Part shown: positions 12,462 to 27,872 of the stretch, piece after piece
How the letters are laid out: each line of letters begins with the position of its first letter
How positions within the stretch are numbered: the first letter of the stretch is position 1
Source of the DNA: a virus
Reading direction: 5' to 3' (one strand)
IMG/VR virus record: IMGVR_UViG_3300035698_004299
Location: 1-35,047 of that record
DNA length: 35,047 nt
Notes under the pieces: model-generated
The model's database searches: none
What the model saw: the letters and a program-made list of their open reading frames with translations, nothing else
What the model was told of the DNA's origin: nothing
Translations under genes and position numbers: made by a program

Positions 12462-13127
12462 ATGTATAAATTAATAAATTGTTTAGGAATAATAATCCTA
12501 CTACTATGTACCACTACAGCGCTAGCCAAAGGGGCTAAGGCTGTTATACATGGGGATAAGCCCTATATTGGATGTAAAGGGACAGTAGACGAAGTCTGCC
12601 ATGCGAGATTAACCACAGAAATTGGAAATCCTGAGAAATACAGAGAATTTCTCTATTTACTAGACAGATTGGACGAAACAGACACGGTTTACGTACATTT
12701 AGCAGGCAATGGTGGGCAATATAGGTCTATGTTGCAGATAGTCAACACAATGCAGAGCAGCAAGGCGAAGGTAATCACAGTAGTAGAGGGATACGTATAT
12801 AGCGCTCACGCCGTCATAGCGCTCGCTGGTAAGACAATAGTTATACACCCCAGTACTGTGTTCCTTTTCCATAGATCGTCCCGCTACAGGACAGAGAAGT
12901 CTATTTGTATCGGACAGAGGGGTAAGTTTGACAGAACGGTGAGTGCTTATCTTAAATGTCAGAGATTTCATAAGAAGCTATTAGAGGCCGACGCACATCT
13001 GCTACGCAGAATAGTGGGACGGCTTCTCACAAAGCCAGAGTTTAATGCCATGCTGCAAGGTGCAGATATCATATTACATGGGGATGTAGTACTTAAGAGA
13101 TTAGCTCCCCCACCTAGGGCTAAGTAA
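12462..13127 (+). CDS. ClpP/SppA-like serine peptidase with signal sequence
   Basis: A 221-residue protein. The first 23 residues (basic start, hydrophobic core LGIIILLLC, then ALA) look like a cleavable signal peptide or membrane anchor. The rest shows the ClpP/crotonase-like peptidase fold: VHLAGNGG (78-85) as oxyanion loop, the nucleophile in YVYSAHAV (Ser114) and the histidine in FLFHRSS (His137). A catalytic Asp is not certain. ClpP itself is cytoplasmic, so an exported or anchored version is unusual and closer in idea to SppA or periplasmic ClpP-like proteins. Four cysteines fall outside the signal region. It ends on the start of the primase gene (TAATG). A second, soluble relative lies at 15682-16272. 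Confidence 0.7.
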   Translation: MYKLINCLGIIILLLCTTTALAKGAKAVIHGDKPYIGCKGTVDEVCHARLTTEIGNPEKYREFLYLLDRLDETDTVYVHLAGNGGQYRSMLQIVNTMQSSKAKVITVVEGYVYSAHAVIALAGKTIVIHPSTVFLFHRSSRYRTEKSICIGQRGKFDRTVSAYLKCQRFHKKLLEADAHLLRRIVGRLLTKPEFNAMLQGADIILHGDVVLKRLAPPPRAK

Positions 13128-13888: not shown

Positions 13889-14285
13889 GTTTAGAGCTTG
13901 GGACACCCAAATAGATGTCCCTAATATGAAATATTCCGACTACTATACCAACCTACAGTATTTCTTTAGTGAGGTGTCGGATGAATACCTAATGCAATAC
14001 ACCGGGCTAAAGGATAAGAATGGAATAGAGATATATGAAGGGGATATTATATCCTATTGGGATGGCTTTTTGGTAGCCGACCCAGATGGAGATATATATT
14101 ACCCGGATACATCACCTTCCCACTACACCCGGAAAAAGAACATTTTAAGAGCAGTGGAATATCATGTATCAAGCTTTAAAGTTCAATCCGGTAATCCACT
14201 AGGTTCCGCAGACCTTCGACAAGAAGATATTGAAGTTGTAGGTAATATATATGAGAATAAGGAGCTATTAGATGGAACAAGTTAA
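13860..14285 (+). CDS. YopX family protein
   Basis: A 141-residue protein with the YopX hallmarks: IKFRAWD near the start (about residues 9-15), then MQYTGLKDKNGIEIYEGDII (about 45-64), and a late VVGNIYENKELL. YopX proteins are widespread in phages and prophages and their role is not established. I chose the ATG at 13860 with GGAG upstream over a TTG one codon earlier. The gene begins inside the end of the primase gene and overlaps the following 52-residue gene by 14 bases. Confidence 0.85.
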   Translation: MKCLYRRAIKFRAWDTQIDVPNMKYSDYYTNLQYFFSEVSDEYLMQYTGLKDKNGIEIYEGDIISYWDGFLVADPDGDIYYPDTSPSHYTRKKNILRAVEYHVSSFKVQSGNPLGSADLRQEDIEVVGNIYENKELLDGTS

Positions 14286-14430
14286 GATAACATACAAAGA
14301 TCAAGAAACTATAGTTTTAGTGTCTGCATTGTATGAACTCTTGAATGAATATGGCATTTTAGCTATTGACGATAAGATCGAGCTAGATACTGTCACTTTA
14401 AATTTAGAGTTTCTAGGAGTAGCAGCTTAG
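14272..14430 (+). CDS. Small acidic protein, unknown function
   Basis: A 52-residue protein (MEQVKITYKDQETIVLVSAL...). It overlaps the YopX-like gene by 14 bases and its stop overlaps the GTG start of the helicase (TAGTG). This close packing and an in-frame AAGGAG eight bases before the start support it. Located between primase and helicase, it could be a replication accessory, but no motif supports that. Confidence 0.6.
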   Translation: MEQVKITYKDQETIVLVSALYELLNEYGILAIDDKIELDTVTLNLEFLGVAA

Positions 14431-15671
14431 TGTATATATCGAATGACTTAGTGCTTCTTAAAGCTTTATCCAATAGGTGTAATTATAGCAGCTATATCGA
14501 TTTAGTGGATTTAAATATCCTAGAAAGCGAAATGCGCAAAGTCTTACTGTCCTTAAAAGATTACTATAAAGAAACAGAGAATGACGTAATAGACCTGGCC
14601 ACATTTAAGACCTGGTTCATACATGGTAAGAACCCCCAGCTTACAGAAGAACAACGAAATATATACGAATTAATTATTAACAGAGCACAAGAGGTGCCAG
14701 CTGAAGACGTAGAGATAGTAGTTCGTTCCTTTTTGGAACGTACTGCTTCACAAAAGCTAATAGAAATTTGTGAATCTAAATTTGACCTTGATAGGTTGCA
14801 ACATGTTATAGAGAAATATGAACATGATGTATCTAGGGTAACGCCAGACGACCAAGGCATGGTCAACAATGACCTTACCACTATTCTAGAATCTACCAGA
14901 AGAGGTGAGGGCCTAGAATGGAGATTGGATTGTCTCAATAGGGCTATCGGCCCACTCAGTAGGGGTAAGTTTATAATAGTAGCTGCCTACGTAGATGTTG
15001 GTAAGACCATGTTTGCTATCAGCGAAGCTGTGCACATGGCTAGGCAGCTGACCACAGGTACAATACTCTGGCTCAATAATGAGGAAGATGATTATCGAGT
15101 ACTTAGGAAGATATGGAAGTCCACCCTAGGCTGTGGAGATAACACACTCTCCGCTAATCCAGCTAAGTGTGAACAAGAGTTTAAGAAGCGCATGCATGGG
15201 GACCTTAATAGAATTAAGATGATCAACATACGAGATAAAAGTTTAAGAGATATAAAGAAACTCTTTGAGAAGTACAAACCGTCACTATGTGTGATAGATC
15301 AAGTAGATAAGATTGCTAATGGTAACTTTAAATCCTTTAGTGATCACGACAGATTGAAGAACTTATATGGAGAGGTGCGGGGATTAGCTAATGAACATTG
15401 CCCGATAATTGCAATATCCCAGGCAGACGTTACAACTGTTAAGTTGGACCGAGATACTGGGGATATTAATTACCAACTGTACCCCCATCATCGACAACTG
15501 GATGGTTCTAAAGTAGGTAAGCCCGGTGAAGCCGACGCAATCATCATGATAGGGAGACGCTCAGAGTCCCCCAACACTAGGGGCTTACACGTTTCTAAGA
15601 ATAAATTTGGTGAAATGATAAAACAAGAAGTCGTATTTAATGGTGCCCAAGCACGATACGAAAACCCATAA
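14430..15671 (+). CDS. Replicative DNA helicase, DnaB/gp4-like
   Basis: A 413-residue RecA-fold hexameric helicase. Motifs: Walker A AYVDVGKT (186-193, K192), E218 in LNNEED (motif H1a), Walker B LCVIDQ (287-291, D290), a sensor Q331 in IAISQAD, and the late basic motif KNKFG (390-394) that supplies the arginine-finger-like contacts. The N-terminal 165 residues are helical, as in DnaB N-domains or linker regions. It unwinds DNA 5' to 3' at the fork and pairs with the separate primase. The GTG start overlaps the previous stop. A GK[ST] loop beginning with Ala rather than Gly is within the known pattern. Confidence 0.9.
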   Translation: MYISNDLVLLKALSNRCNYSSYIDLVDLNILESEMRKVLLSLKDYYKETENDVIDLATFKTWFIHGKNPQLTEEQRNIYELIINRAQEVPAEDVEIVVRSFLERTASQKLIEICESKFDLDRLQHVIEKYEHDVSRVTPDDQGMVNNDLTTILESTRRGEGLEWRLDCLNRAIGPLSRGKFIIVAAYVDVGKTMFAISEAVHMARQLTTGTILWLNNEEDDYRVLRKIWKSTLGCGDNTLSANPAKCEQEFKKRMHGDLNRIKMINIRDKSLRDIKKLFEKYKPSLCVIDQVDKIANGNFKSFSDHDRLKNLYGEVRGLANEHCPIIAISQADVTTVKLDRDTGDINYQLYPHHRQLDGSKVGKPGEADAIIMIGRRSESPNTRGLHVSKNKFGEMIKQEVVFNGAQARYENP

Positions 15672-15681
15672 GGATTAACGC

Positions 15682-16272
15682 ATGAGTACAGAAGAATATG
15701 ACGATATGGCCTCCCCTTACAAGATCTTTTCTAAGACTACAGCAGGGCAGGAGCATGATGTTTACCTATCCGATTCCGTGGAAACAGATAGCGCCGAGTA
15801 CATAGACCTATTAAGGTTTTTTAATAAGGTCCCAGCCAATGACTATGTAACGGTACATTTAGCTAACTTTGGGGGAGCTGTGCATACAGGTCTTCGTGTG
15901 GCACACGCTATGCGGAACTGTGACGGAATAGTTACCGTCAATGTAGATGCACCATGCTACAGCATGGGCGCTATCTTGGCTACCTCAGGGGATATACTTA
16001 TAATGAACCCAGGAACATTCTTAATGTACCATAATTATTCAACCGTTGAGGGCGGAAAAGCTGGGGAACTAAAGACAGCAGTACTACAGTATGAGAAGCA
16101 TTTTCAATATAGTCTTAAATACTTCTGCTCTCCCTTCTTAACCAAGAAAGAGATAAAAGATTTATCTCGCGATACAGATGTGTACATCCATTACAACGAT
16201 GATGATCTGGTGAAGCGGTGTAAACGACACTTCCCAATGGTGAAAGATATGGAGATAACTAAGTATGACTAA
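15682..16272 (+). CDS. ClpP-like serine peptidase
   Basis: A 196-residue ClpP-family protein, the size of bacterial ClpP. It shows VTVHLANFGG (57-66) as the oxyanion region, the nucleophile in CYSMGAIL (Ser94) and the catalytic histidine in LMYHNYS (His117). It has no signal sequence, so it should be cytoplasmic. ClpP needs an AAA+ unfoldase partner to degrade folded proteins, and none of the ClpX/ClpA type is seen here; it could use host ClpX/ClpA or act alone. It lies between helicase and polymerase and overlaps the polymerase start by eight bases. It is similar in motif order to the signal-bearing protein at 12462, suggesting an old duplication. Confidence 0.82.
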   Translation: MSTEEYDDMASPYKIFSKTTAGQEHDVYLSDSVETDSAEYIDLLRFFNKVPANDYVTVHLANFGGAVHTGLRVAHAMRNCDGIVTVNVDAPCYSMGAILATSGDILIMNPGTFLMYHNYSTVEGGKAGELKTAVLQYEKHFQYSLKYFCSPFLTKKEIKDLSRDTDVYIHYNDDDLVKRCKRHFPMVKDMEITKYD

Positions 16273-18397
16273 AAAGTACATGGTTATGGATTTAGAAACC
16301 ACAGGGCATACGACTTATCGTAGGTTCTGTAATCCATTAGATGATAAACATGAGATTACACTTGTCGCCTATAAGATACAAGGAGAGGAAACTACTTGTG
16401 ACTCTAACTATACACTCGGCATACCGAGGGATGAAGTCTTTAAGCATATAAACTTAGATGAGATTAGTTTTATATGTGGCCAGAACTTTAAGTTCGATAT
16501 GTTATGGTTTTGGAGAGACGCCAAGTTTCAACAATGGTTAAAAGACGGAGGTACCATATGGGATACACAGACAGTAGAGTACTTACTAACAGGCCAAAGG
16601 TTTGGTAAGCGTAGCTTAGATGCCTTAGCTAAGAAGTATGGGGCCGAACTTAAGGATGATAGGATTGGTGCCATGTATAAGGCTGGTCTCACATCTAAAG
16701 AGATACCCCACGCGTTACTAGAACCCTATGCCCTAGCAGATGTAGACAATACTAATATAGTATTACAAGGTCAGGCTAAACTAGCCAAGAAGCTAGGCAT
16801 GTTACCGCTGATTAAGGTTTATATGGAACATTACGTTGCCATCGCTGAGATGGAATACAACGGAATGCATATAGATTTAGATCTAGCGCAGCGAAGAACT
16901 AACGAGTTAGAGGTGGACCTGTCTGAAATACGTATACAAATTGGGGACATAGCTAGAACCTACTGGCCTAAACATATGGAATTTAATTGTGGTTCTTTGG
17001 AGCACGTAAGCGCGGTACTATTTGGCGGTGAGATACTAAATGTAGAGGACGTACCGAAATTAGATGAATATGGCGACACCGTACAGTATAAAAGTGGGAA
17101 GAAAGAGGGACAAATAAAGACTCGCAAAGAAAAAGTTGCGCATAAGATTAAAGGTATGGGAGCACGCCCTAAAGTTATTTGGAGAAAGGCTAAAGGACAC
17201 TATGGGACAGATGAAAATGTCCTTAAAGATGTCCTTAAACGGGAAAATGTCCTTAAAGATGTCCCTAAAAAGTCAGAAGATGTCCTATTCTTTACCCAAA
17301 TGCTGCTTGATTATCGTAAAATGAATAAATTACTCACAACCTACTACTATGCCGTTGAGTATTATAAAACTACTGGCAAAGTAAAGAAAGAGACAGGGCT
17401 AATACCACTAATACACCCTGATGGTTGTTTACACACAGAATTTAAGACAGCATACACAAGGACAGGACGTTTATCGTCCCAGAACCCTAACGTACAGAAC
17501 CTCGCACCTGAGATATTAGATATGTTTGATAGTAGGTGGGGCGATGAAGGGGCCATAGTCGAGATCGATTACTCACAGTTAGAGGTTAGAGTGCAGGCTT
17601 GGGTTACCCAATCCAAGCAGATGATCCAAGATATCAAGGACGGGGTGGATTTCCACGTACTACGACTGTCATACGCTGAAGATTTACCATACGATGAAGT
17701 GTTGCAGAAAGTGCAACAGCTCCCAGAATGGAAAGAGAAACGTAAGAAGGCTAAGACTATATCCTTTCAGAAGGCCTACGGTGCCCGCAGTGAGAAGATC
17801 GCAGAGTCTACAGGGCTACCAGTAGGGGTGGTAGAAAAAGTCTTTAAGAAAGAGGATAGACGCTATCCTGAAGTAGAACAGTTCCATAGATTAGTAGAGG
17901 ATTCTATCAAAGAATCCAGAAGAGCTACACCTAACCTACAGAAGATTAGGAATAAGGCTACTGGACTATATACAGAGTCCCCAGGAGAGTATGAAGCCTA
18001 TGGCACATACCAATCCCCAACCACAAAGCTGTATTGCTTTGAGGAAAGGGCAGTATTTACTAAGACTGGGCGTATATTCAGGTACTTGAGTACCCCTGAT
18101 ATACAAAACTACCCAATTCAAGGTACAGCGGCAGACATCGTAGCAAGCCAAGTAGGTGAGGTATTTAAGTTCCTTCAGCACCAAAGAGATAAAGTGTTAA
18201 TGATCAACGAGGTACATGATAGTTTGATTTTAGATGTAAAAAAAGGACATTTACACTTGATTATCCCCCAAGTTTGTGCTATACTGGAAAGAGTAGAAGA
18301 AGACTTTGAAAGAAAATTCGGTATAAAGTTTAATGTCCCTATCAAAGTGGACGTATCCTATGGTAGTACATGGGCAGAGGCTAAAGATAATGAATAA
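16265..18397 (+). CDS. DNA polymerase, family A, with 3'-5' exonuclease
   Basis: A 710-residue T7-type replicative polymerase. The exonuclease has D9/E11 (MDLETTG), D78 (NFKFDML) and Y155/D159 (PYALADVDN). The polymerase has TGRLSSQNPN (400-409), motif A VEIDYSQLE (D435, E440), motif B with R493, K497, F501, Y505 (KTISFQKAYG) and motif C EVHDS (H651, D652). All catalytic residues are present. The residue matching E. coli Pol I 762 is Phe501. There is no 5'-3' exonuclease domain; a separate FEN gene is at 25242. Two copies of a ten-residue repeat (ENVLKDVLKR / ENVLKDVPKK) sit at residues 317-336, between exonuclease and palm. Confidence 0.95.
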   Translation: MTKKYMVMDLETTGHTTYRRFCNPLDDKHEITLVAYKIQGEETTCDSNYTLGIPRDEVFKHINLDEISFICGQNFKFDMLWFWRDAKFQQWLKDGGTIWDTQTVEYLLTGQRFGKRSLDALAKKYGAELKDDRIGAMYKAGLTSKEIPHALLEPYALADVDNTNIVLQGQAKLAKKLGMLPLIKVYMEHYVAIAEMEYNGMHIDLDLAQRRTNELEVDLSEIRIQIGDIARTYWPKHMEFNCGSLEHVSAVLFGGEILNVEDVPKLDEYGDTVQYKSGKKEGQIKTRKEKVAHKIKGMGARPKVIWRKAKGHYGTDENVLKDVLKRENVLKDVPKKSEDVLFFTQMLLDYRKMNKLLTTYYYAVEYYKTTGKVKKETGLIPLIHPDGCLHTEFKTAYTRTGRLSSQNPNVQNLAPEILDMFDSRWGDEGAIVEIDYSQLEVRVQAWVTQSKQMIQDIKDGVDFHVLRLSYAEDLPYDEVLQKVQQLPEWKEKRKKAKTISFQKAYGARSEKIAESTGLPVGVVEKVFKKEDRRYPEVEQFHRLVEDSIKESRRATPNLQKIRNKATGLYTESPGEYEAYGTYQSPTTKLYCFEERAVFTKTGRIFRYLSTPDIQNYPIQGTAADIVASQVGEVFKFLQHQRDKVLMINEVHDSLILDVKKGHLHLIIPQVCAILERVEEDFERKFGIKFNVPIKVDVSYGSTWAEAKDNE
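17213..17272 (+). repeat. In-frame 30-base tandem repeat in the polymerase gene
   Basis: Two copies of a 30-base unit beginning GAAAATGTCCTTAAAGATGT, at 17213-17242 and 17243-17272, nearly identical in the first 27 bases. Each copy also contains a shorter ATGTCC-TAAA repeat, so the unit itself looks duplicated. It encodes ENVLKDV(L/P)K(R/K) twice. A recent in-frame duplication is the likely cause. Confidence 0.7.
18257..18285 (+). promoter_or_regulatory. Candidate internal promoter near the end of the polymerase gene
   Basis: TTGATT (18257-18262), 17 bases, TATACT (18280-18285), preceded by TGC (extended -10). It lies about 100 bases before the 47-residue gene and could serve the diphosphohydrolase/PrkA cluster. 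It is inside coding sequence and may be chance. Confidence 0.35.
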
Positions 18398-18533
18398 TAT
18401 AAAGAAATATCTAAAGAAAAGAAAGAAAGATCTAGATGGGCAGATTGAAGGATTAGCCGCACGACGGATGAGAGATTTAATGTTGGAAGAGGAGCGGAAC
18501 GAAGTGATTGCCCTATTAAAGGATATAAAATGA
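18390..18533 (+). CDS. Small basic helical protein, unknown function
   Basis: A 47-residue protein (MNNIKKYLKKRKKDLDGQIE...), strongly basic at the N-terminus and helical throughout. It overlaps the polymerase end by eight bases and the next gene by four (ATGA). A ribosome site (AGAGG) lies about ten bases upstream. Upstream in-frame codons inside the polymerase gene have no ribosome site. The function is unknown. Confidence 0.6.
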   Translation: MNNIKKYLKKRKKDLDGQIEGLAARRMRDLMLEEERNEVIALLKDIK

Positions 18534-18838
18534 CAGAGAATAAAGTAGACGAATTGATTACATTTATTTGTACCTACCCAGAGTTCGCCGATATCATGCA
18601 TGTCATAGAGTTCGGAGCGAACAAACATGGGGATGATAATTGGATACAACAAGCAGGGAAGAAGAGCAGCCACAAAGATATGCATGCATCTATATTTAGA
18701 CACATTGCAGAATCTTCAGCCGGGGTCCGGGAAGACCACGAGACAGGGCTAGACCCCTTGCTACACGCAGCAGTGAGGTGCTTAATGCTTTACACTAGAA
18801 AAACCAGACACTTAGACCACCCAGAGGATGAGGCTTAA
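18530..18838 (+). CDS. dATP/dGTP diphosphohydrolase-like protein (DUF5664 type)
   Basis: A 102-residue helical protein with IEFGANKHGDDNW (residues about 26-38), an ASIFRHI segment (about 53-59) and DHETGLDPLLHAAVRCLMLY (about 68-87). The pattern FGAxKxxxxNW, then xxxRHI, then DxETGLxxLxHAAxxxLxL is that of the phage dATP/dGTP diphosphohydrolase family (PF18909, relatives called MazZ in phages that use 2-aminoadenine). Members are related to MazG and hydrolyse dNTPs to dNMP. Here no PurZ or DatZ partner is seen, so Z-base synthesis is not implied. It may only adjust nucleotide pools. It overlaps the small gene upstream and precedes prkA. Confidence 0.7.
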   Translation: MTENKVDELITFICTYPEFADIMHVIEFGANKHGDDNWIQQAGKKSSHKDMHASIFRHIAESSAGVREDHETGLDPLLHAAVRCLMLYTRKTRHLDHPEDEA

Positions 18839-18839
18839 T

Positions 18840-20759
18840 ATGAAATTGTTAAAAACTTTACAAAATGAATACCAACAAAAGCAAAATAAAGTGATGACCC
18901 TTGAGGAATACCTTAAGCTGGCCAAGAAAGATAAGAGTATCTTCGCATCGCCAGCAGAAAGGATGCTATCAGCAATAGGAAAGCCTACACTAATAGATAC
19001 GGGAAAAGATCCCCGACTAGGTCGAATCTTCGGCAATAGGGTTATCCGCTCATATAGCACCTTTCAAGATTTCTACGGTATGGAGGAAGTAATCGAACGA
19101 ATCGTTTCATTCTTCACCCATGCAGCGCAGGGATTAGAGGAATCTAGACAGATATTATATTTATTAGGACCGGTAGGGTCCGCTAAATCTTCGATAGCAG
19201 AGCGCTTAAAAGAGTTAATGGAGGAGCAGCCCTTCTTCGTGTTAGCGGATGTGGAGGGCAACCTAAGCCCAGTTAACGAGTCTCCTTTGGGGATCTTCGA
19301 AACACAACAAGCAAAAGAGTTAGGTATACCAGAACGGTACTTAACCATACGCCCATCACCATGGGCGCTTAAGAGGATTGACGAATATGACGGTGATTTA
19401 TCCAAATTCAGAGTGGTACAAGTCTCCCCATCAAGGGACAGACAAATCGGTATCAGTAAAACCGAGCCCGGTGACGAAAATAACCAGGACATTAGCACCC
19501 TTGTCGGTAAGCTCGATATTAGAAAACTTGAGTTCTTTTCCCAAAATGACGCAGATGCCTATAATTATAGTGGGGGATTGTGTTTATCAAATCAAGGGAT
19601 TCTTGAATTCGTCGAGATGTTCAAAGCCCCGATTAAAGTATTGCACCCATTACTCACAGCAACTCAGGAACGGAACTATAAAGGAACTGAAGCTATCAGC
19701 GCCATCCCTTTTGATGGTATTATATTAGCCCATAGTAATGAAAGTGAGTGGGACACCTTCAAGGGAGACCAGAACAATGAGGCATTCCTAGATAGGGTGT
19801 ACATAGTAGAGGTCCCATACTGTTTACGAATCGATGAAGAAGTTACAATTTATAAGAAGCTGTTAGCAAGTAGTGACTTGGCTAAAGCTAAGAGAGCACC
19901 AGGTACTCTACATATGTTAGCGAAGTTCTCTATCCTATCAAGGCTAGATCAACCGGAAAACTCAACGCTTGAAGCTAAGCTATTAACCTATAACGGTGAG
20001 AACATCAAAGATAAAGATGTAAAAGCAAAGGCTTACCATGAATATAAAGAAGCTGCTAGCAGGGAAGAGGGATTTTTCGGAGTATCCACACGACTAGCCT
20101 ACAAGGTTTTATCGGAAGTGTATAACTTCGACCCAGATGAAATAGCTGCTGATCCTGTACATTTATTGTACATCTTAGAGAAAGTTATTAAGAAAGAAAG
20201 ATATTCGGAAGACAAAGAGTTATTATACCTCACCTTCTTGAAAGACTTCCTAGCCCCACGCTACGCACAAGAGGTAGGTAAGGACATACAAACAGCATAT
20301 TTAGATAGTTATAGCGAATATGGGCAAGCATTATTTGATCGATACATCCTATTTGCTGACCATTGGGTACAAGATAATGATTATCGTGACCCAGATACAG
20401 GTAATATGTTCGATAGATCAGCACTTAACAACGAGTTAGAGCGAATTGAGAAGCCAGCTGGCATCGCTAACCCTAAAGATTTTAGGAACGAGATAACCAA
20501 TTTCGCCTTACGCTACCAAGCGAGGCACGATGGTAAGAACCCTAAATGGACTTCTTATGAAAAACTAAGAAGAGTAATCGAGTCAACAATGTTTAGTAAA
20601 ACCGAGGACTTACTGCCTATTATCTCCTTTGGAGGGCATGGATGTAGCGATGATCGGAAAAAACATGACGCATTTGTTGACAGAATGGTAGAAATGGGCT
20701 ATACTAAGAAACAAGTAAAGAGATTAGTGGAATGGCATATCAGAATGCAGAAGAGTTAA
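18840..20759 (+). CDS. prkA: PrkA-type AAA+ serine protein kinase
   Basis: A 639-residue protein, against 644 in E. coli YeaG/PrkA, and alignable over its whole length from memory. Landmarks include AAERxLxAIG-like start (SPAERMLSAIG), FYGMEEVIERIV, P-loop GPVGSAKSS (110-118, K116), KTEPGDENNQDIS, EFVEMFKAPIKVLHPLLTAT, FDGIILAHSNESEW, EYRDPDTG-like region and KKHDAFVDRMVEMGY near the end. PrkA proteins have an AAA+ domain and a C-terminal kinase-like domain and act in starvation responses; ATP-dependent protease activity has been proposed for the Bacillus protein. I chose ATG 18840, preceded by GAGG at the right distance, over ATG 18828. The gene is rare as a phage gene. Confidence 0.95.
   Translation: MKLLKTLQNEYQQKQNKVMTLEEYLKLAKKDKSIFASPAERMLSAIGKPTLIDTGKDPRLGRIFGNRVIRSYSTFQDFYGMEEVIERIVSFFTHAAQGLEESRQILYLLGPVGSAKSSIAERLKELMEEQPFFVLADVEGNLSPVNESPLGIFETQQAKELGIPERYLTIRPSPWALKRIDEYDGDLSKFRVVQVSPSRDRQIGISKTEPGDENNQDISTLVGKLDIRKLEFFSQNDADAYNYSGGLCLSNQGILEFVEMFKAPIKVLHPLLTATQERNYKGTEAISAIPFDGIILAHSNESEWDTFKGDQNNEAFLDRVYIVEVPYCLRIDEEVTIYKKLLASSDLAKAKRAPGTLHMLAKFSILSRLDQPENSTLEAKLLTYNGENIKDKDVKAKAYHEYKEAASREEGFFGVSTRLAYKVLSEVYNFDPDEIAADPVHLLYILEKVIKKERYSEDKELLYLTFLKDFLAPRYAQEVGKDIQTAYLDSYSEYGQALFDRYILFADHWVQDNDYRDPDTGNMFDRSALNNELERIEKPAGIANPKDFRNEITNFALRYQARHDGKNPKWTSYEKLRRVIESTMFSKTEDLLPIISFGGHGCSDDRKKHDAFVDRMVEMGYTKKQVKRLVEWHIRMQKS
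20677..20705 (+). promoter_or_regulatory. Candidate promoter before the YeaH/SpoVR part
   Basis: TTGACA (20677-20682), 17 bases, TATACT (20700-20705), 72 bases before the gene at 20777. Eleven of twelve positions match. The sequence also encodes the conserved PrkA C-terminus (FVDRMVEMGYT), so a chance match through codon choice must be considered. Confidence 0.45.
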
Positions 20760-20776
20760 ACTAAGGAGAAAACAGA

Positions 20777-20968
20777 GTGAAGGTATTATTTGATTTGAGT
20801 ATAGGAACGGCAGAGGGCCCTTCCGGGTCCCAAGAGCCAACCGCTAGGCTGCGATACGGAGACAACCTAGCGGAGGTTATCCTGCTCAATGCTGTAGGTA
20901 TGGGGATGTCTTTAAGTAATTGGGTTGCCTATGTGCAGTCCGCACAATCAGGAGAGAATAATGAGTAA
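20777..20968 (+). CDS. Small protein between PrkA and YeaH genes, unknown function
   Basis: A 63-residue protein starting with GTG, eight bases after a clear AAGGAG site. The N-terminal part MKVLFDLSIGTAEGPSGSQE is followed by ARLRYGDNLAEVILLNAVGM and ends SGENNE. It overlaps the following small membrane gene by eight bases. Bacterial prkA-yeaH pairs that I know do not carry such a gene between them. No family is recognised. Confidence 0.65.
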   Translation: MKVLFDLSIGTAEGPSGSQEPTARLRYGDNLAEVILLNAVGMGMSLSNWVAYVQSAQSGENNE

Positions 20969-21089
20969 AGCATCGGTAAGTATAGTTAAGAGATTTAAGA
21001 ATCTCGCTAAATTCATCCATACAGGGATGAAGACAGGGGATAAAGTTCTCATAATAATGGTAATTATAGCATTGGTGGTACTAATTTAA
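20961..21089 (+). CDS. Small single-pass membrane protein next to YeaH
   Basis: A 42-residue protein with a basic N-terminal part (MSKASVSIVKRFKNLAKFIH) and a C-terminal hydrophobic segment (VLIIMVIIALVVLI) that ends the protein. GGAG lies eight bases upstream. Its stop and the YeaH start share a base (TAATG), so the two may be translationally coupled, which suggests but does not prove a shared function, for example tethering the YeaH/PrkA complex to the membrane. Confidence 0.6.
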   Translation: MSKASVSIVKRFKNLAKFIHTGMKTGDKVLIIMVIIALVVLI

Positions 21090-22246
21090 TGACAATCATC
21101 GACAGACGTAAAAATAGCAAAGGTAAATCGACTACTAATCGTAAGAAGTTTATCGACCGCTATAAACGTCAAATCAAGAACGAAGTGGAGGACCTCGCAA
21201 AGGATCGGAATATCCAAGATATTCTGGATTCTGGTGAGGTTACTATCTCCGGCGATGATATCTCGGAGCCTACATTTGAGCATAACTCGGATACAGGCTC
21301 TAGGGACCACGTGTTACCAGGTAACAAGAAGTATAGACGTGGTGACCACATCAAGAAGGATAAAGGCGGACAAGGACAAGGCCGCGGAGGGTCTAACGAT
21401 GGGGATGGATCAGATGAATTCAGTTTCGTACTGACTAAAGATGAATTCTTAGATTTGTATTTCCATGGGATGGAGTTACCAGACTTCTTAAAAGAAAGCG
21501 CTAAGGATAACGTACGCTTTAAGTATAAGAAAGCTGGATACAGTAAAGACGGGATACCAGCCCGATTAAATGTTAAGAAGACCATGGAGCAGGCCATAGG
21601 CCGTCGCTTCGCTACTAAGGGACAAGGCAAGAAGCCTAGGTACCTAGATGATGAGGATATCCGATACGATTACTTCGCTAAGAAGCCAATACCAGTACGT
21701 ACAGCAGTAATGTTTTGCTTAATGGATTGCTCAGGCAGTATGGGAGAGTTCCATAAAACTATAGCTAAAAAGTTTTACTTACTACTATACTTATTCTTAC
21801 ATAAAGAATATGAATTTATTGAGCTTGTGTTTATAAGACATACACATAGAGCCTCGGAAGTAGATGAACATACCTTCTTCCACGGAAGAGAGACAGGTGG
21901 TACGGTAGTTTCCACAGCATTAGAACTAATGAAAGATATTATGGATACTAGATACGACCACGCAAGTACTAACTTCTATGTAGCGCAGGCCTCAGATGGA
22001 GATAACTGGGCAGATGATGCGCAGGCTACCAAGGACCTATTAAGACAGATTATACCATTAGTACAATACTATGTATATATCGAGATTAACGAAATGGAAT
22101 GGGCCGAACAACGGGCCAACATAGGCCTCGATGCCTTATTGAATACCTTTAAGTCTCTAGAAAGAGAATTTAAGAATACAAAATGTAAGCAAGTATATGA
22201 CGCATCAGATGTATACCCAGCACTACAGGAGTTATTTAAGAAATGA
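21089..22246 (+). CDS. yeaH: YeaH/YhbH family VWA protein (UPF0229)
   Basis: A 385-residue protein matching E. coli YeaH (427). Landmarks: IDRRKNSKGKSTTNRKKFI at the start, the Gly-rich linker (GGQGQGRGGSNDGDGSDEF, 93-111), KDEFLDLYFHGMELP, and a VWA domain with the MIDAS motif DCSGS (D213, S215, S217), the ETGGT threonine (T269 or T272) and ASDGDNWADD (D303). About 43 residues of a helical, coiled-coil-like segment before the VWA domain of YeaH are missing (around residue 175-185 here). VWA proteins pair with AAA+ proteins, and in bacteria yeaH lies next to prkA. Translation is coupled to the membrane gene upstream. Confidence 0.93.
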   Translation: MTIIDRRKNSKGKSTTNRKKFIDRYKRQIKNEVEDLAKDRNIQDILDSGEVTISGDDISEPTFEHNSDTGSRDHVLPGNKKYRRGDHIKKDKGGQGQGRGGSNDGDGSDEFSFVLTKDEFLDLYFHGMELPDFLKESAKDNVRFKYKKAGYSKDGIPARLNVKKTMEQAIGRRFATKGQGKKPRYLDDEDIRYDYFAKKPIPVRTAVMFCLMDCSGSMGEFHKTIAKKFYLLLYLFLHKEYEFIELVFIRHTHRASEVDEHTFFHGRETGGTVVSTALELMKDIMDTRYDHASTNFYVAQASDGDNWADDAQATKDLLRQIIPLVQYYVYIEINEMEWAEQRANIGLDALLNTFKSLEREFKNTKCKQVYDASDVYPALQELFKK

Positions 22247-22277
22247 GTAGGATTAAACGAGCTAAAGAGGACTTATT

Positions 22278-23594
22278 GTGGTAAAAGTAGATGATACTGG
22301 GATTAAACCCTTATTCACATCAGCAGAATGGGATTTCGAGACTATCCAAAAGACTTGGGATGCTATCGATAAGATAGGCAAAGATGTCTTTGGATTAGAC
22401 TATTATGCCCCACAGATTGAAATGATTACAGCAGAGCAAATGCTGGATGCCTATAGCTCGGTAGCTATGCCGGTCATGTACAACCATTGGTCCTTTGGTA
22501 AGTCGTTCATCCAAAATGAAAGAGCATACAATCGGGGACAAATGGGATTGGCCTACGAGGTAGTGATTAACACTAACCCATCTATAGCATACCTTATGGA
22601 AGAGAATACTATGACTATGCAAACATTAGTTATGGCACACGCAGTGTGTGGACATGCCTCATTCTTTAAGAATAACTATCTATTCCAAGAATGGACAGAT
22701 GCCGGGAGCATCTTAGAGTATCTTAAGTTTGCTAAAGAATACATACATAAATGTGAGAGTAAGTACGGCAACACGGCCGTAGAGAAGATACTGGACGCTT
22801 GTCACGCATTACAGTACTACGGTGTGGATAAATACCAACGAGCGAACGTACTGAAAGCTGACCTTAAAGCTGAACGAGTAGAAGTATGGGAACAATACTT
22901 TGATGAGAAGTTTGACCATGTACTCAATACAACAGTAACCGATGCCGTAGGTACTCGTAATAGTGCCAAAGCTAGAGCACTTAAGGGCGCAACTACAGAC
23001 GTTAGGCACGCAGAGAATGAGGAGAATATCCTATATTTCATAGAGAAGAACTCCACAGTATTAGCCCCATGGCAACAAGAGATAGTACGTATCGTGCGTA
23101 AGATAGCACAGTACTTCTATCCCCAAATGCAAACACAGTTAATGAATGAGGGTTGGGCTACATTTACACATTATAATATAATGACAGAATTACATGGCCA
23201 AGGACTGATAACAGACGGTAGCTTTATGGAGTTTTTACAGAGCCATTGCGGAGTTGTTGCACAACCAGACTTTGATAGTGATTACTATTCAGGTATTAAT
23301 GTATATGCACTAGGGTTTGCGATGATGCAAGACATCAAAAGGATATGCCAGAACCCAACAGCTGAGGATAGGAAATGGTTCCCAGACTTGGTAGACCAAG
23401 AGTGGTTACCCACAATGAAGGATATAGTAGAGGACTACAGAGATGAATCGTTTGTTTTACAGTTCTTATCGCCAAAGATTATTAGAGATTTCAAGTTATT
23501 CACGCTACATAATGATGAGTGTACATCAAAGTACACAGTAGCAGCGACCCATTCGGATGAAGATATATTAAAAAATCCGACAATCGCTTTCTAA
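22278..23594 (+). CDS. spoVR: SpoVR/YcgB family protein, N-terminal 438 residues (frameshifted)
   Basis: GTG start with AGAGG seven bases before it. This frame gives 438 residues that match SpoVR/YcgB through FxLFxxxDDE: MPVMYNHWSFGKSF, the MAHAVCGHASFFKNN motif (H121, H126), NEGWATFTHY (290-299) and SPKIIRDFKLFTL. E. coli YcgB has about 510 residues, so the C-terminal 75 are missing here. They are found, in the right order and without gap, in the +1 frame at 23572-23820. The shift falls at an A6 run (23570-23575). SpoVR is needed for spore cortex in Bacillus; YcgB acts with PrkA and YeaH in starvation. The molecular role is not settled. Removing one A would give a 513-residue protein. Confidence 0.93.
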   Translation: MVKVDDTGIKPLFTSAEWDFETIQKTWDAIDKIGKDVFGLDYYAPQIEMITAEQMLDAYSSVAMPVMYNHWSFGKSFIQNERAYNRGQMGLAYEVVINTNPSIAYLMEENTMTMQTLVMAHAVCGHASFFKNNYLFQEWTDAGSILEYLKFAKEYIHKCESKYGNTAVEKILDACHALQYYGVDKYQRANVLKADLKAERVEVWEQYFDEKFDHVLNTTVTDAVGTRNSAKARALKGATTDVRHAENEENILYFIEKNSTVLAPWQQEIVRIVRKIAQYFYPQMQTQLMNEGWATFTHYNIMTELHGQGLITDGSFMEFLQSHCGVVAQPDFDSDYYSGINVYALGFAMMQDIKRICQNPTAEDRKWFPDLVDQEWLPTMKDIVEDYRDESFVLQFLSPKIIRDFKLFTLHNDECTSKYTVAATHSDEDILKNPTIAF

Positions 23595-23820
23595 GCATTA
23601 TAGTTTAACCTATAAACTACCGCAAATGGAAGTATTATCAAACAAGACAACATCATCGTCTAAGAATGTCATGTACTTACAACATAAAGTTATTGATGGT
23701 ACGATATTAGATTATGAGAAAGCGAAGAAGACATTAAGATATATAGACTACCTTTGGGGCAGTCCAGTAGAATTAGAGTATGTAGGCCCAACCGGGCTAC
23801 AAGTAGACAGAGTTCAATAG
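23572..23820 (+). CDS. spoVR: SpoVR C-terminal segment in the +1 frame
   Basis: The +1 frame is open from 23572 and reads IRQSLSKHYSLTYKLPQMEV, then VMYLQHKVIDGTILDYEKAK and IDYLWGSPVELEYVGPTG. This matches the C-terminal domain of SpoVR/YcgB (IRQxLSxxYxL, LTLRHxxxxxxPL, VLxHxxxLWGxxVxLE). It cannot be an independent gene: the first ATG (23626) lacks a ribosome site and the conserved part starts before it. The segment is therefore the end of SpoVR, reached by +1 frameshifting, or lost by a one-base insertion, or an assembly error in the A run. Confidence 0.85.
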   Translation, partial: KIRQSLSKHYSLTYKLPQMEVLSNKTTSSSKNVMYLQHKVIDGTILDYEKAKKTLRYIDYLWGSPVELEYVGPTGLQVDRVQ

Positions 23821-23831
23821 AGGAGAACGTA

Positions 23832-24422
23832 ATGGAAAAAACAGTAACAGTAATCAGTGTAGAGCAGGATTTTGCAGCAGAGAAACGAGATGGTAGTACT
23901 TACCAGGCTACGATGCTGAATTATCAAGATGGACAGTTTGCTAAGCAAAAAGCTTTTGCTAATGCTTTCTTATCCAGCCAACCAGAACTAACAGAGAAGC
24001 TGCATGCACTAAAGCCTGCAGATATTGTAACCCTAGTGATGGAAAAGAACGGTATGTTTACTAACGTACTAGATATCATCTCAGGCGCTACAGAAGAAGG
24101 AACTTCATTCAAAAAGAAGGCTTTCGCGCCAACAGCGCCTACGTCGTCTAAGGCTCCGAATTCATTTCAAAGTAATGCGCATGGTCTACAAGTGGGTAAT
24201 TCGCTAACTAATGCCACAACCTTAATTGCTGCAGGCAAAGCTAAGGGTACCTTAGAAGAAGTAGCAGTAATGGTTATCCAAGTAGGCGAAAGCCTCAAGG
24301 CCAGGTTAGCAGCAGGAGAGTTCGCTGTTCCCGAACAGAAAACAGAAACTAAAGTACCTGTTGTAGAAAAAGTAGCAACTGAGGACATAGTAGTAGATGA
24401 ATGTATCGACTTTGGGAGCTAG
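23832..24422 (+). CDS. Possible single-stranded DNA-binding protein
   Basis: A 196-residue protein started at ATG 23832 (GGAG seven bases upstream), not at the in-frame upstream codon at 23754. The N-terminal 90 residues (MEKTVTVISVEQDF..., DGSTYQATMLNY, DIVTLVMEKNGMFTNVLDII) could form a five-strand OB-fold. The middle is low-complexity Ser/Ala/Thr-rich, and the C-terminal tail is acidic and ends in a hydrophobic residue pair (EDIVVDECIDFGS). This layout resembles phage ssDNA-binding proteins such as T7 gp2.5, and its place before the nucleases fits. Sequence alone cannot confirm it. Confidence 0.45.
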   Translation: MEKTVTVISVEQDFAAEKRDGSTYQATMLNYQDGQFAKQKAFANAFLSSQPELTEKLHALKPADIVTLVMEKNGMFTNVLDIISGATEEGTSFKKKAFAPTAPTSSKAPNSFQSNAHGLQVGNSLTNATTLIAAGKAKGTLEEVAVMVIQVGESLKARLAAGEFAVPEQKTETKVPVVEKVATEDIVVDECIDFGS

Positions 24423-24424
24423 AA

Positions 24425-24661
24425 ATGCCTAAATTAAAAGTAGGAGACGAAATATTATTCAAAACTGGACCACTAGGCGATCCAAGTATTGGGATAGTCC
24501 GATCGATAGACTCCGCATACAGGCTAGTTATGGTGGAGCATCTGGGGTCATCAGAGAAACGATGGTATAATGAAGTAGCACTTAATTGGAAACTTTATGG
24601 CGGACAAGGAACCATTGCCGCGGAAACTAAAGTTAAGAATAACATAATGGGAGATTGGTAA
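24425..24661 (+). CDS. Small strand-rich protein, unknown function
   Basis: A 78-residue protein (MPKLKVGDEILFKTGPLGDP...), predicted mainly beta, in the manner of SH3- or KOW-like small domains (VGDEILFKTG, GIVRSIDSAYRLVMVEHLG). I chose ATG 24425 with GGGAG upstream over ATG 24401. It lies one base before the next gene. No family is recognised. Confidence 0.6.
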   Translation: MPKLKVGDEILFKTGPLGDPSIGIVRSIDSAYRLVMVEHLGSSEKRWYNEVALNWKLYGGQGTIAAETKVKNNIMGDW

Positions 24662-24662
24662 C

Positions 24663-24932
24663 GTGAAGATTGAGATTAGTAAAAACGATCTATTTCTCCT
24701 ACTGAGTAGCTCATTACGCTATTCGGTAGGGAGAAGGAGCTACATAGTGGGGGCCTGCTCGAAATGGCTTAGAGAGTATACACCTAATCTCTCTAAAGTT
24801 GATCAAGCAAAGATAATATACTCATTAGAACAAGAGTATAAAGATAAAAATAAATATATGGAAGAGATGGATAAAAAGGAGTGGACCAGAACGCTACTTG
24901 AGCTTAGGAGGAATTATGAAAGTAACTTTTGA
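24663..24932 (+). CDS. Small basic helical protein, unknown function
   Basis: An 89-residue protein starting with GTG. The N-terminal part MKIEISKNDLFLLLSSSLRY is followed by a basic stretch and two helices (DQAKIIYSLEQEYKDKNK, EEMDKKEWTRTLLELRRN). It overlaps the next gene by 17 bases. No catalytic motif is seen. Confidence 0.6.
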   Translation: MKIEISKNDLFLLLSSSLRYSVGRRSYIVGACSKWLREYTPNLSKVDQAKIIYSLEQEYKDKNKYMEEMDKKEWTRTLLELRRNYESNF

Positions 24933-25245
24933 AGTTGATACGGATGAGGATGCATATGAGTATCACTCTATACTACAGGCAGAGGGGATGCGTAACGCAT
25001 TAACAGACCTAACTGGTCGCTATATGTCTAGCTCAGGTTTGGAAGGATTTAAACACCTCCTTAAATATGATGGAGTGGGGAAGTTAAGAGATAAAGTTTT
25101 AAAAGAAAGTGGAAAAGATTATACAAAATTTAGTACAATTGAAAAAGAATTAATCAACACAGTAGCCTACGGCGTAGCGTCTGAGATAGAGGATCTATTT
25201 TATAGAATAATTGACGCTAATAATGTGGAGTTAGATATCGAATGA
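24916..25245 (+). CDS. Acidic protein upstream of the FEN nuclease, unknown function
   Basis: A 109-residue acidic protein (MKVTFEVDTDEDAYEYHSIL...). The ATG at 24916 is preceded by a perfect AGGAGG four bases away, so it is preferred over the TTG at 24898. Content is mainly helical with an initial strand. It overlaps the FEN gene start by four bases (ATGA), suggesting coupling. The family is not recognised. Confidence 0.65.
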   Translation: MKVTFEVDTDEDAYEYHSILQAEGMRNALTDLTGRYMSSSGLEGFKHLLKYDGVGKLRDKVLKESGKDYTKFSTIEKELINTVAYGVASEIEDLFYRIIDANNVELDIE

Positions 25246-26114
25246 AATGCTTAATTGACGGAGACATACTAATATACCGTGCAGGATATGCAGCGCAAAA
25301 GACGGTATACAAGTTTGCCCATACGGGTGGGCAATTGGAAGAATTCCCAGGTATGTCCAAAAAGGAGGTGATCCAAACCTTAAAAGCGCGGCAAATGACC
25401 AAGGAGAGCGGTAAGCTACAAAAAACGGTCCGTCCCGACCCGATTGAGTTTGCTTGTCATACGCTTAAACTGATGGTTAGGGACATATTAGAGGCTATAG
25501 GTACGGAGGAGTATGATCTCCTCCTAACCTCAAACGATAAAAGTAACTATCGTTTTGATATAGCGAAGACTAAGGTCTATAAAGGAAATAGAACACAGGC
25601 AAAGCCACACCACTATGCGGACTTAAGGAACTACTTAAGTGATGTATGGGGAGCTATAACGGTTACAGGGATAGAAGCTGATGATTCATTAGGAATCAGA
25701 CAGATGAAAGAACAAGATACAGTAATTTGTACAATTGATAAAGATTTACATATGATTCCTGGTAAACATTATAACTTTGTTACCAAGGAACGTAAGGAAG
25801 TAGAGGACCCAGGGGGCCTGGAGCTGAGGAATAGCAACCGAAAGCTAGTAGGTGGGGGAGTTATGTGGTTTTATGCGCAGATGCTTACAGGAGATAGTGC
25901 TGATAATATACCAGGACTTAAAGGTTATGGCCCAGTGAAAGCATACCACATGCTTGCTAAGACAAGAAACGAAAAGCAGATGTGTAAAGTAGTATACGGA
26001 GCCTATAAAAAGATGAAGGTAGAGGATAGATTCTTTGAAGTAGCTGATCTGCTATGGATACAGCGTTTACCAAATGAACGCAAAAGTGAGGAGTTAATGC
26101 AATGGGTCCCATAG
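25242..26114 (+). CDS. 5'-3' exonuclease (FEN/T7 gp6 type)
   Basis: A 290-residue PIN-like flap nuclease. The metal-binding residues are in order: LIDGDIL (D6, D8), GIEADDS (E145, D147, D148), TIDKDLH (D166, D168) and TGDSADNIPG (D218, D221). The last motif begins the helix-hairpin-helix region with GLKGYGPVKA. It would remove RNA primers and degrade host or concatemeric DNA ends, complementing the polymerase, which lacks a 5' nuclease domain. T7 gp6 plays this role. The start overlaps the preceding stop, and the end overlaps the 58-residue gene by 13 bases. Confidence 0.92.
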   Translation: MKCLIDGDILIYRAGYAAQKTVYKFAHTGGQLEEFPGMSKKEVIQTLKARQMTKESGKLQKTVRPDPIEFACHTLKLMVRDILEAIGTEEYDLLLTSNDKSNYRFDIAKTKVYKGNRTQAKPHHYADLRNYLSDVWGAITVTGIEADDSLGIRQMKEQDTVICTIDKDLHMIPGKHYNFVTKERKEVEDPGGLELRNSNRKLVGGGVMWFYAQMLTGDSADNIPGLKGYGPVKAYHMLAKTRNEKQMCKVVYGAYKKMKVEDRFFEVADLLWIQRLPNERKSEELMQWVP

Positions 26115-26278
26115 ACTTTACAAAGATGGCTAAACAGATGAGGGACGATTTAGAGTCCCACAAGAGCCCGCAATATATAGCTGAGGCTTATTTGAAACAA
26201 GCGTTCCACTTAGGAACAGAACACGGATGGTGGAAACATTATGAGGATAGAAAACATGACTCACGAGATAAAGATTAG
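26102..26278 (+). CDS. Small protein, unknown function (58 aa)
   Basis: A 58-residue protein (MGPIDFTKMAKQMRDDLESH...) with HLGTEHGWWKHYEDRKHDSR near the end, rich in His and Trp. It overlaps the FEN gene by 13 bases and the next small gene by 23 bases. The overlap chain supports it as a real gene. No motif is recognised. Confidence 0.55.
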   Translation: MGPIDFTKMAKQMRDDLESHKSPQYIAEAYLKQAFHLGTEHGWWKHYEDRKHDSRDKD

Positions 26279-26408
26279 ATTAAGCAATGGTAAGGTGATG
26301 ATGAAAAGATTGATGTTACCCCACGCAGATGAAGAAACATTAATAGCAGCATTCCAGGAGATGATACCTGATATGGTTAAGGAACTTAAGAATGACGACG
26401 AAGTATAA
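26256..26408 (+). CDS. Small protein, unknown function (50 aa)
   Basis: A 50-residue protein (MTHEIKIRLSNGKVMMKRLM...) with an initial strand pair and a C-terminal acidic helix (DEETLIAAFQEMIPDMVKEL). AGGA lies upstream inside the preceding gene. It overlaps the nuclease start by 17 bases. The function is unknown. Confidence 0.55.
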   Translation: MTHEIKIRLSNGKVMMKRLMLPHADEETLIAAFQEMIPDMVKELKNDDEV

Positions 26409-26781
26409 GAAAAGAACCACAGCAGGCAACAGAGCTGTGCGTAATAAGTCTTTAGGTAGGGAAGGACAAGTAAAGGCACGTGATGTGTTCCTTAAAGCCT
26501 TCCCACAGCTCGAAGAGGATGATATCTATAGTCGTCCTATGGGGTCGCCAGGGGAAGATCTAATGCTCTCTCCTGCGGCTAGAAAGCTACTCCCTTTCGA
26601 TATAGAGGTTAAGTATGGTACGTCATTGAATCTTATCAGAGCTTGCCAACAGGCAGCTGCTGAGTCTAGAAGTGGACACATAGCGCTAGGTATGGGGTGT
26701 TACAGACTAGAGAAACCACAGCAATGGTATGTATGTTTAACAGTAGAAGATCTACTAAGGATATTAAAAAATGAGTATTAA
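26392..26781 (+). CDS. PD-(D/E)XK nuclease, possible junction-resolving enzyme
   Basis: A 129-residue protein, basic at the N-terminus, with GREGQVKARDVFLKAF (22-37), then RPMGSPGEDLMLSPAAR (48-64, E55/D56) and FDIEVKYGTSL (69-79, E72 and K74), followed by a helix with Q86. The order acidic residue, ExK and Gln is that of the PD-(D/E)XK nuclease fold, and small phage resolvases of the T7 gp3 class have this size. It could cut branched replication intermediates or degrade host DNA. The active-site assignment is by pattern only. Confidence 0.7.
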   Translation: MTTKYKKRTTAGNRAVRNKSLGREGQVKARDVFLKAFPQLEEDDIYSRPMGSPGEDLMLSPAARKLLPFDIEVKYGTSLNLIRACQQAAAESRSGHIALGMGCYRLEKPQQWYVCLTVEDLLRILKNEY

Positions 26782-27028
26782 CTGGTATTCCTGCCCTAAC
26801 AGGACCTTATGTGATTGTTTATCAGAGATGAGGAACATACTTAAAGCCTCTGGTGAAAACGTTACTATCTTAGCTGGACTGATTGAAGAAGTACAAGTAT
26901 ATGCTAATCGGATGGAGTCGGCACTAGAGGACTGGTCTGATATCAGAACTATGCATGATACAAAGAAGAAGCTTAAGAAAGAGATAAAGAAACTAGAAAA
27001 GAAGAAAGAGGAGCTAGAAGATGACTAA
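26771..27028 (+). CDS. Small coiled-coil protein, unknown function
   Basis: An 85-residue protein. The N-terminal part carries four cysteines or near-cysteines (WYSCPNRTLCDCLSEM), and the last 30 residues are a highly charged helix (TKKKLKKEIKKLEKKKEELE), probably a coiled coil. It overlaps the nuclease by 11 bases and the next gene by eight. No function is known. Confidence 0.6.
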   Translation: MSINWYSCPNRTLCDCLSEMRNILKASGENVTILAGLIEEVQVYANRMESALEDWSDIRTMHDTKKKLKKEIKKLEKKKEELEDD

Positions 27029-27872
27029 AACACTATTTTACGACATAGAGACCACTCTATTATCGTTATGGGGATTCTCTTTAGGTAAGACGGTGCTAAG
27101 GCATCCTCAACTACTTAAAGGTTATTTCTCAAGGACTCATGTTATATGTATTACCTATAAATGGGAACATGAGAAGAAATCTAAGATACTTACCTGGGGT
27201 AAAGGTATAGCTGGTGAGAAAAAGATGATGCAAGACTTCGATAAGCTCGTTAAACAAGCTGATGTAGTTATTGGCAAGAACAGTAATAGGTTTGATAACA
27301 AACACATGAACACACAAAGGTTATGGTTTGGATTAGACGGTATGCCTGAATGGATCCATAAATGTGATGATTTAGAGTCACAGATGAGAAGACATTTTTA
27401 CTTACCTTCTTATGCGTTAGATTACTTCTCTGAACAACTAGGTTTAGGTGGGAAAAATTCCATGAAGCTTGATGATTGGACTTGTATTAATCAATTACGA
27501 TGTATACAGGTATGTAAACTTAAATCAGGGAATAAGTTCTTTGAGTTCATGTTCAATAAGACTGTAGATCAAGCGAAGAAAGACGGTGAAAAAGCATTGA
27601 AGAAGATGTTTGTATATGGTATCAAAGATACAGATGATACAGCGAGGCTGTGGAATCACTGCAAGAAGCACTTAAAACCTAAGCATAATGAAGCAGCACA
27701 GTATGACTGTCCAGCATGTAAGCATTGTGGTAGTAAGGAAGTTAGAAGAAATGGTGGACCTAAGTTCTCTGGACAAACGCTATTCCAATACTTCTTTTGT
27801 CTAGATTGTCGTACCGGCGGTACTAGGGCATCTGTAAATAGGAAAACTGGTAAGATAGGGAGAATGTCATAA
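27021..27872 (+). CDS. RNase H-like 3'-5' exonuclease with C-terminal zinc ribbon
   Basis: A 283-residue protein. The DnaQ/YprB-like exonuclease has D8/E10 (YDIETT), D92 in NRFDNKH and Y199/D203 (YGIKDTDD). A C-terminal zinc ribbon uses CPACKHC (C230, C233, C236) and CLDC (C260, C263). Predicted single-stranded exonucleases related to family B polymerase proofreading domains occur alone in phages. It is separate from the polymerase's own exonuclease. The added zinc ribbon may bind DNA or RNA. Its substrate cannot be told from sequence. It shares its last base with the next start. Confidence 0.75.
   Translation: MTKTLFYDIETTLLSLWGFSLGKTVLRHPQLLKGYFSRTHVICITYKWEHEKKSKILTWGKGIAGEKKMMQDFDKLVKQADVVIGKNSNRFDNKHMNTQRLWFGLDGMPEWIHKCDDLESQMRRHFYLPSYALDYFSEQLGLGGKNSMKLDDWTCINQLRCIQVCKLKSGNKFFEFMFNKTVDQAKKDGEKALKKMFVYGIKDTDDTARLWNHCKKHLKPKHNEAAQYDCPACKHCGSKEVRRNGGPKFSGQTLFQYFFCLDCRTGGTRASVNRKTGKIGRMS

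Follow-up and report, generated by a model that had tools for sequence, protein, structure and literature searches.

A prkA-yeaH-spoVR gene trio among the replication genes of a family of 42-48 kb phages

Introduction

What are three genes of a bacterial starvation response doing amid the replication genes of a phage? The question is raised by IMG/VR virus record IMGVR_UViG_3300035698_004299, a linear fragment of 35,047 bases that was analysed at its full length and is called the window below. On its forward strand lie, one after the other, genes for PrkA/YeaG (18828..20759, 643 amino acids, an AAA+ ATPase with the PrkA C-terminal domain), for the VWA protein YeaH/DUF444 (21089..22246, 385 amino acids, with a metal ion-dependent adhesion site, MIDAS) and for SpoVR/YcgB (22278..23594 as the frame stands, 438 amino acids, holding the main domain). 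This prkA-yeaH-spoVR trio belongs to a single run of forward genes (12462-27872) in which, as a preliminary description of the locus had noted, the replication genes are also found: genes for primase, DnaB, a ClpP-like protein, PolA and a dGTP diphosphohydrolase-like protein lie 5' of it, and genes for a 5'-3' exonuclease and a DNA-polymerase exonuclease lie 3'.

In nitrogen-starved Escherichia coli, YeaG and YeaH together act as a 'metabolic brake', and their operon yeaGH is controlled by NtrC and by stress (PMC4664914, PMC10954441). In Rhizobium etli, prkA, a VWA gene and spoVR form one operon induced by guanosine tetraphosphate (ppGpp), with prkA the most strongly induced gene; a prkA mutant had no clear phenotype (PMC3188799). 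Kinase and protease activities were both negligible when a PrkA of Bacillus anthracis was assayed in vitro (PMC13001217). The same description knew of no established phage role for the three genes together, and our literature searches agree, though phage prkA and spoVR had been annotated before. Searches of an open-access library turned up no account in which the trio forms part of the core genome of a phage family; single annotations of prkA or spoVR in phages were known, and the core status of the trio in a phage family thus appears to be new.

Results

Using PolA as a marker for the independent retrieval of relatives (family A DNA polymerase, 16265..18397, forward strand, DNA_pol_A 5.9e-47), we found the trio to be a core element, present at a fixed place in all 17 contigs, window included, that have a close PolA relative and sufficient downstream sequence. 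There are two types of replication module, that of the window (window, L009, L011, L205 and L241) and that of locus L001 (L001-L008, L010, L070, L163 and L171). Of the PolA-retrieved contigs that extend far enough downstream, 12/12 of the L001 type had the trio, as did 4/4 of the window type, or 5/5 with the window itself, counts that include contigs ending within the trio with only its start present. PolA forms the upstream anchor of the cassette, and wherever a contig covers that side the trio is found slightly 3' of the polymerase region; two further loci are L196, with other genes in the place of PolA, and L207, whose contig starts shortly 5' of the trio. In window-type phages gene-order comparison gives the 5'-3' exonuclease gene as the downstream anchor (25242..26114, forward strand; 5_3_exonuc 9e-07 and 5_3_exonuc_N 1.5e-06, both under the Pfam cut-off). 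The gene frequently found immediately 5' of prkA in relatives encodes a dATP/dGTP diphosphohydrolase N-terminal-like protein and in the window overlaps the start of prkA (18530..18838, forward strand, PF18909 1.3e-12). Among PolA relatives at 31% identity or less the trio was found in none.

Those relatives by terminase large subunit (TerL, 40-57%) that look near full length are contigs of 42-48 kilobases (kb). The 44,161-base contig IMGVR_UViG_3300049793_000084 is inferred to be circular because the trio spans both of its ends (loci L010 and L165). The phage records matching PrkA included none of the phages, cultured or named, that are closest by TerL, for example EBPR podovirus 1 (51%), and no cultured relative of the 42-48 kb family with the cassette was found.

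Composition places the trio with its phage neighbours. Its guanine-cytosine content, overall (GC) and at third codon positions (GC3), and its codon usage equal those of the adjacent replication genes; the codon distance between trio and flank, 0.21, is close to that found within the replication genes (0.22) and well below that to E. coli yeaGH (0.53).

We then asked how far the linkage extends among viruses. In IMG/VR, at least 195 stretches hold a gene for a PrkA relative and at least 252 one for a SpoVR relative. Where the sequence reached far enough downstream, viral loci retrieved by PrkA had YeaH and SpoVR following in the same order in 52/53 cases; where it reached far enough upstream, loci retrieved by SpoVR had PrkA and YeaH 5' of it in 67/67, both counts including repeats of the same or near-identical contigs. 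The sole exception, L050, is without SpoVR; E. coli likewise has ycgB elsewhere. The trio occurs together with a terminase in a dozen large contigs, including ones of 342, 363, 323, 238 and 202 kb, and its neighbours there include genes for nicotinamide phosphoribosyltransferase (NAMPT), thymidylate synthase and a protein with weak tail tape-measure matches. Two large viral contigs have genes of nicotinamide adenine dinucleotide (NAD) salvage, for NAMPT and nicotinate phosphoribosyltransferase, adjacent to the trio or not far from it (L062:7381-8766, L072:16054-17358). In two phages of about 640 kb the trio genes lie close together, whereas in a third, LR756502.1, SpoVR (at 519962) is far from PrkA (at 273828) and YeaH, an exception to the linkage. 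Enterobacter phage LAU1 (MN688132.1, L227, 1-3308) was rejected as a case of the cassette: the record opens with yeaG-yeaH, 97.7% and 93% identical to E. coli, and this is probably host flank.

Other genes may intervene within the cassette. Read by eye, one phage contig has an HNH-endonuclease-like gene between prkA and yeaH (L033:2804-3285), and a calcineurin-like phosphoesterase gene separates yeaH from spoVR in L003 (11250-12056), L002 (14275-15054), L007 and L008; if PrkA is a kinase, this phosphoesterase is possibly its phosphatase partner.

Trees of the three proteins took in alpha-, beta- and gammaproteobacteria, large viral contigs, the phages of about 640 kb and 14 phages of the family. 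The 14 stood on one side of a branch in each tree, with support of 86 for PrkA (98 for a 12-row core), 99 for SpoVR and 98 for YeaH, and the branching order within the group was broadly alike across the three, which is the expectation for a unit inherited together. When the PrkA tree was widened and rooted on Thermus phages, the branches of L196 and L207 lay deeper, and that all 14 PrkAs share one origin is therefore likely rather than proved. A clade of large viral contigs that had seemed purely viral also needed correction: alphaproteobacterial sequences lie within it, L176 groups with them, and some contigs there may therefore be bacterial. Pairwise ratios of nonsynonymous to synonymous change (dN/dS) were 0.01-0.17 at unsaturated distances, the mark of purifying selection, and among close relatives the dN of PrkA was 0.08-0.10 versus 0.15-0.23 for the phage DNA polymerase. 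The fixed place, the linkage and this constraint bear out the preliminary view in part: the cassette truly belongs to the phage and is maintained as a whole, while the starvation-state switch proposed with it keeps the rank of a hypothesis. The trees it called for, to see whether the phage copies form a clade of their own, gave a separate group for all three genes, and the search of viral sets and the comparison of gene order found the trio in many other phages.

The family identity of the trio genes is near certain, since Pfam, NCBIfam and identities to E. coli agree with the assignments first made from the sequence. PrkA matches AAA_PrkA (8.2e-157, 522 bits) and the C-terminal domain (1.6e-57, 195 bits; cut-off 25), scores 1052 bits against the NCBIfam equivalog cut-off of 576, and is 61.8% identical over 638 amino acids to YeaG of E. 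coli K-12. YeaH matches DUF444 (1.4e-126, 423 bits, cut-off 27), exceeds its NCBIfam cut-off (459 bits against 396) and is 45.5% identical to the K-12 protein over 374 amino acids; its predicted model shows, together with a fold search, the VWA fold. SpoVR matches its Pfam domain (8.6e-147, 489.5 bits, cut-off 27) and is 52.8% identical to K-12 YcgB over 426 amino acids. A chance match is excluded by the Pfam E-values of the trio, all 1e-126 or lower. Alignment with E. coli over nearly the whole length, also claimed earlier, holds for PrkA and YeaH but not for SpoVR, which is split: its open reading frame (ORF) ends at 23594 and not at 23820.

The function of YeaG in E. coli depends on residues of both its AAA+ and its C-terminal parts, namely K116 (Walker A), R232 and K426 (PMC4664914), and the phage PrkA retains them as K120, R232 and K426. 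YeaH likewise keeps the MIDAS residues D213-x-S215-x-S217, T272 and D303, so that the retention of P-loop and MIDAS reported at first stands. The only PrkA relatives with a solved structure are 9xip, 9xiq and 9xir. PrkA fell short of MoxR membership (bpMoxR 20.1 bits against 27; RavA 24 against 681), and the YhbH model of the Firmicute-type PrkA/YhbH/SpoVR set reached 200 bits, under its cut-off of 468. Because the phage PrkA is of the Pseudomonadota type, 59-62% identical to PrkA of that phylum versus 29% to a Bacillus PrkA, a role in sporulation is unlikely. Seen in the sequence of one genome only, a short frame of 42 amino acids with a hydrophobic C-terminal stretch lies between prkA and yeaH (20961..21089, forward strand); its stop overlaps the ATG of yeaH, and the two may be translationally coupled.

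The spoVR gene of the window is a split gene rather than a full-length member. Its frame stops at 23594 after 438 codons, intact relatives having 485-516 amino acids, and the last 80 or so codons, with most of SpoVR_C, run in another frame to a stop at 23820 (23572..23820, forward strand; SpoVR_C 3e-8 for 23626-23817). Because the C-terminus is absent from the ORF, the protein stays below the NCBIfam equivalog cut-off (640 bits against 679; relative L001 reaches 698). An A6 run at about 23570-23575 precedes the change of frame, but since the SpoVR of relatives is intact in one frame, a programmed frameshift is less likely than a recent mutation or an error of sequencing or assembly.

The AlphaFold model of SpoVR is confident (predicted local distance difference test, pLDDT, 89), and a fold search with it returned no solved relative; to the idea of a zinc peptidase, suggested by the His motifs, the search of this predicted model lent neither support nor refutation. 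Inteins may point to the active site, as they often sit in active-site motifs of proteins indispensable to the genome. Two viral SpoVR proteins carry one, at NEGWA|CF in L001 (13020-15434) and at HAA|CGH in L194 (11275-13695), and a different intein occupies the NEGWA|CF site in L149 (4406-7186), a contig of a betaproteobacterial metagenome-assembled genome. They were called from their characteristic ends and their insertion into conserved motifs; Pfam and NCBIfam searches did not flag them. Given these insertions, HAxxGH and NEGWAxF are probable parts of the active site. The long SpoVR ORFs of the bacterial loci L113, L094 and L138 proved to be start-codon artefacts without inteins, and an apparent PrkA-YeaH fusion in L149 was an artefact of an out-of-frame ORF.

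Discussion

We favour, with confidence evenly divided for and against, the reading that the trio is a Pseudomonadota YeaG-YeaH-YcgB stress complex adapted by the phage, which runs it to hold the host tolerant and productive. The trio is a complete copy that tailed phages of the 42-48 kb family inherit as a core unit, and it is probably expressed alongside the replication genes, presumably early. PrkA would assemble as an AAA+ ring with YeaH as its VWA/MIDAS adaptor, the two together remodelling or activating a target, and SpoVR, with its HAxxGH and NEGWAxF motifs, would join this complex as an obligatory third partner, either substrate or enzyme. As the host copies are induced by starvation regulators, a copy in the phage operon would set the timing itself; it would act on the host by imposing slowed metabolism and stress tolerance when the phage chooses, and the phage would benefit from a cell that stays intact and productive until its replication finishes. 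Core status in phages of about 45 kb, where each gene is costly in space, argues that the trio works as a unit and matters in infection, and its permanent carriage suggests that it is needed to control the infected cell. Against this stand the apparent harm that a brake on metabolism would do to a lytic phage whose host is growing, the constant location of the trio amid the replication genes of the small phages, which equally allows a role in replication, and the split of SpoVR in the window contig. We regard as doubtful, though worth stating, the broader claim that the trio is an indispensable core machine of the phage family, independently acquired or kept by unrelated phage groups, controlling a process generally required for productive infection. 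If true, the phage versions would be the best handle on the biochemical function of the bacterial complex, and SpoVR would be an enzyme of a new fold with its active site marked by the two intein sites.

A machine tied to replication is unlikely in our judgement. In this reading PrkA and YeaH would remodel replication proteins of the phage or the host, or deliver substrates to a phage ClpP-like protease; SpoVR would be a partner, and the set would have no function in host starvation. It would explain the constant location of the trio in the 42-48 kb phages, flanked by the DNA polymerase region and exonuclease genes, the ClpP-like genes nearby in most of them, and the inteins of phage SpoVR, inteins being frequent in replication proteins. 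Yet the examined stretch of L003 has no Clp gene, the bacterial set is a stress module, and jumbo and Thermus phages have the trio among other genes; its presence in unrelated large phages with different neighbours favours a host-directed function over one in the replisome. We think it less likely still that the phage subunits mix with or outcompete host YeaG-YeaH-YcgB and turn the host programme off. An identity of 62% between the PrkAs would permit mixed rings, and ending the metabolic brake would benefit the phage; but PrkA and YeaH retain their functional residues, and the strong constraint on all three proteins exceeds the needs of a poison subunit.

AAA+ and VWA proteins are found in several defence systems, and this, with the NAD-salvage genes that adjoin the trio in two of the large viral contigs, could hint at counter-defence or superinfection exclusion. 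Such a system is improbable here, as a PADLOC search of defence protein models gave no match at E 0.01 and the position of the trio in the small phages is constant, outside any variable accessory region. Host DNA joined by assembly, or a decaying recent pick-up, is refuted for the cassette as a whole and keeps next to no probability. Bacterial proteins are the nearest named ones, the window has a broken SpoVR frame and the public LAU1 case is best read as host flank, but the gene order recurs in many independent contigs, GC, GC3 and codon usage match the flanking phage genes, the phage copies form a separate group in three trees, and the trio is under purifying selection. Neither of the two outcomes that the preliminary description had named as fatal to its proposal was thus found, host-DNA chimerism or absence of the trio from all other phages along with evident decay.

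Pairs of a MoxR-type AAA+ ATPase and a VWA protein are known as RavA-ViaA, CbbQ-CbbO and NorQ-NorD. In each the ATPase gene adjoins that of a MIDAS-bearing VWA protein, as prkA does yeaH, and the two kinds of pair may work alike, although PrkA is a separate AAA+ family with a C-terminal domain of its own. The trio shares its three families with E. coli YeaG-YeaH and YcgB, functional residues being kept in the phage, and its gene order is identical to that of the prkA-VWA-spoVR operon of R. etli and Mesorhizobium. It differs from the E. coli set in sequence (46-62% identity), in forming its own tree group and in lying within a run of phage replication genes; phage YeaH has 385 amino acids versus 427 in the bacterial system, and the host control regions are not in the phage copy.

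Among phages, the Thermus phages phiYS40, TMA, phiLo and Lalka8 have genes for a VWA protein, SpoVR and a serine kinase close together, as here, and phiYS40 had already been annotated with PrkA-like and SpoVR genes; however, their PrkAs are 25-29% identical, the order is VWA-SpoVR-PrkA and they belong to another phage group. The 343.8-kb Ralstonia jumbo phage RsoM2USA, by its published description, has SpoVR (ORF28) near PrkA (ORF30), without recognition of the set as a unit (PMC8504454). In an oxygen-minimum-zone virome, viral spoVR was reported as the most abundant auxiliary gene of the sporulation class and was read as a sporulation inducer (PMC8940887). In the viral contigs studied here spoVR is accompanied by prkA and yeaH of the type of non-sporulating Pseudomonadota, which corrects its reading as a 'sporulation' gene, and the viral spoVR of that zone may mark the whole trio. 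PrkA-YeaH-SpoVR is a widespread conserved set in bacteria, and the phage family offers a compact genetic system, with infection as read-out, for its function.

Other features of the window

The reverse strand of the window encodes terminase, portal, a GroES-like protein, an amidase and a GH19-like protein; the GroES (Cpn10)-like gene (1167-1505) adjoins the portal gene. A search of the window for tRNA genes found none, and no host could be assigned from tRNA. Two genes for ClpP-like serine proteases lie in the replication region (12462-13127 and 15682-16272), and most relatives have one to three apiece. In the L207 contig (48,471 bases; G011:C1:14072-15914) the terminase large subunit is split, with about 380 bases separating its two pieces, and one Pfam match crosses a TAA; this is perhaps an inserted element.

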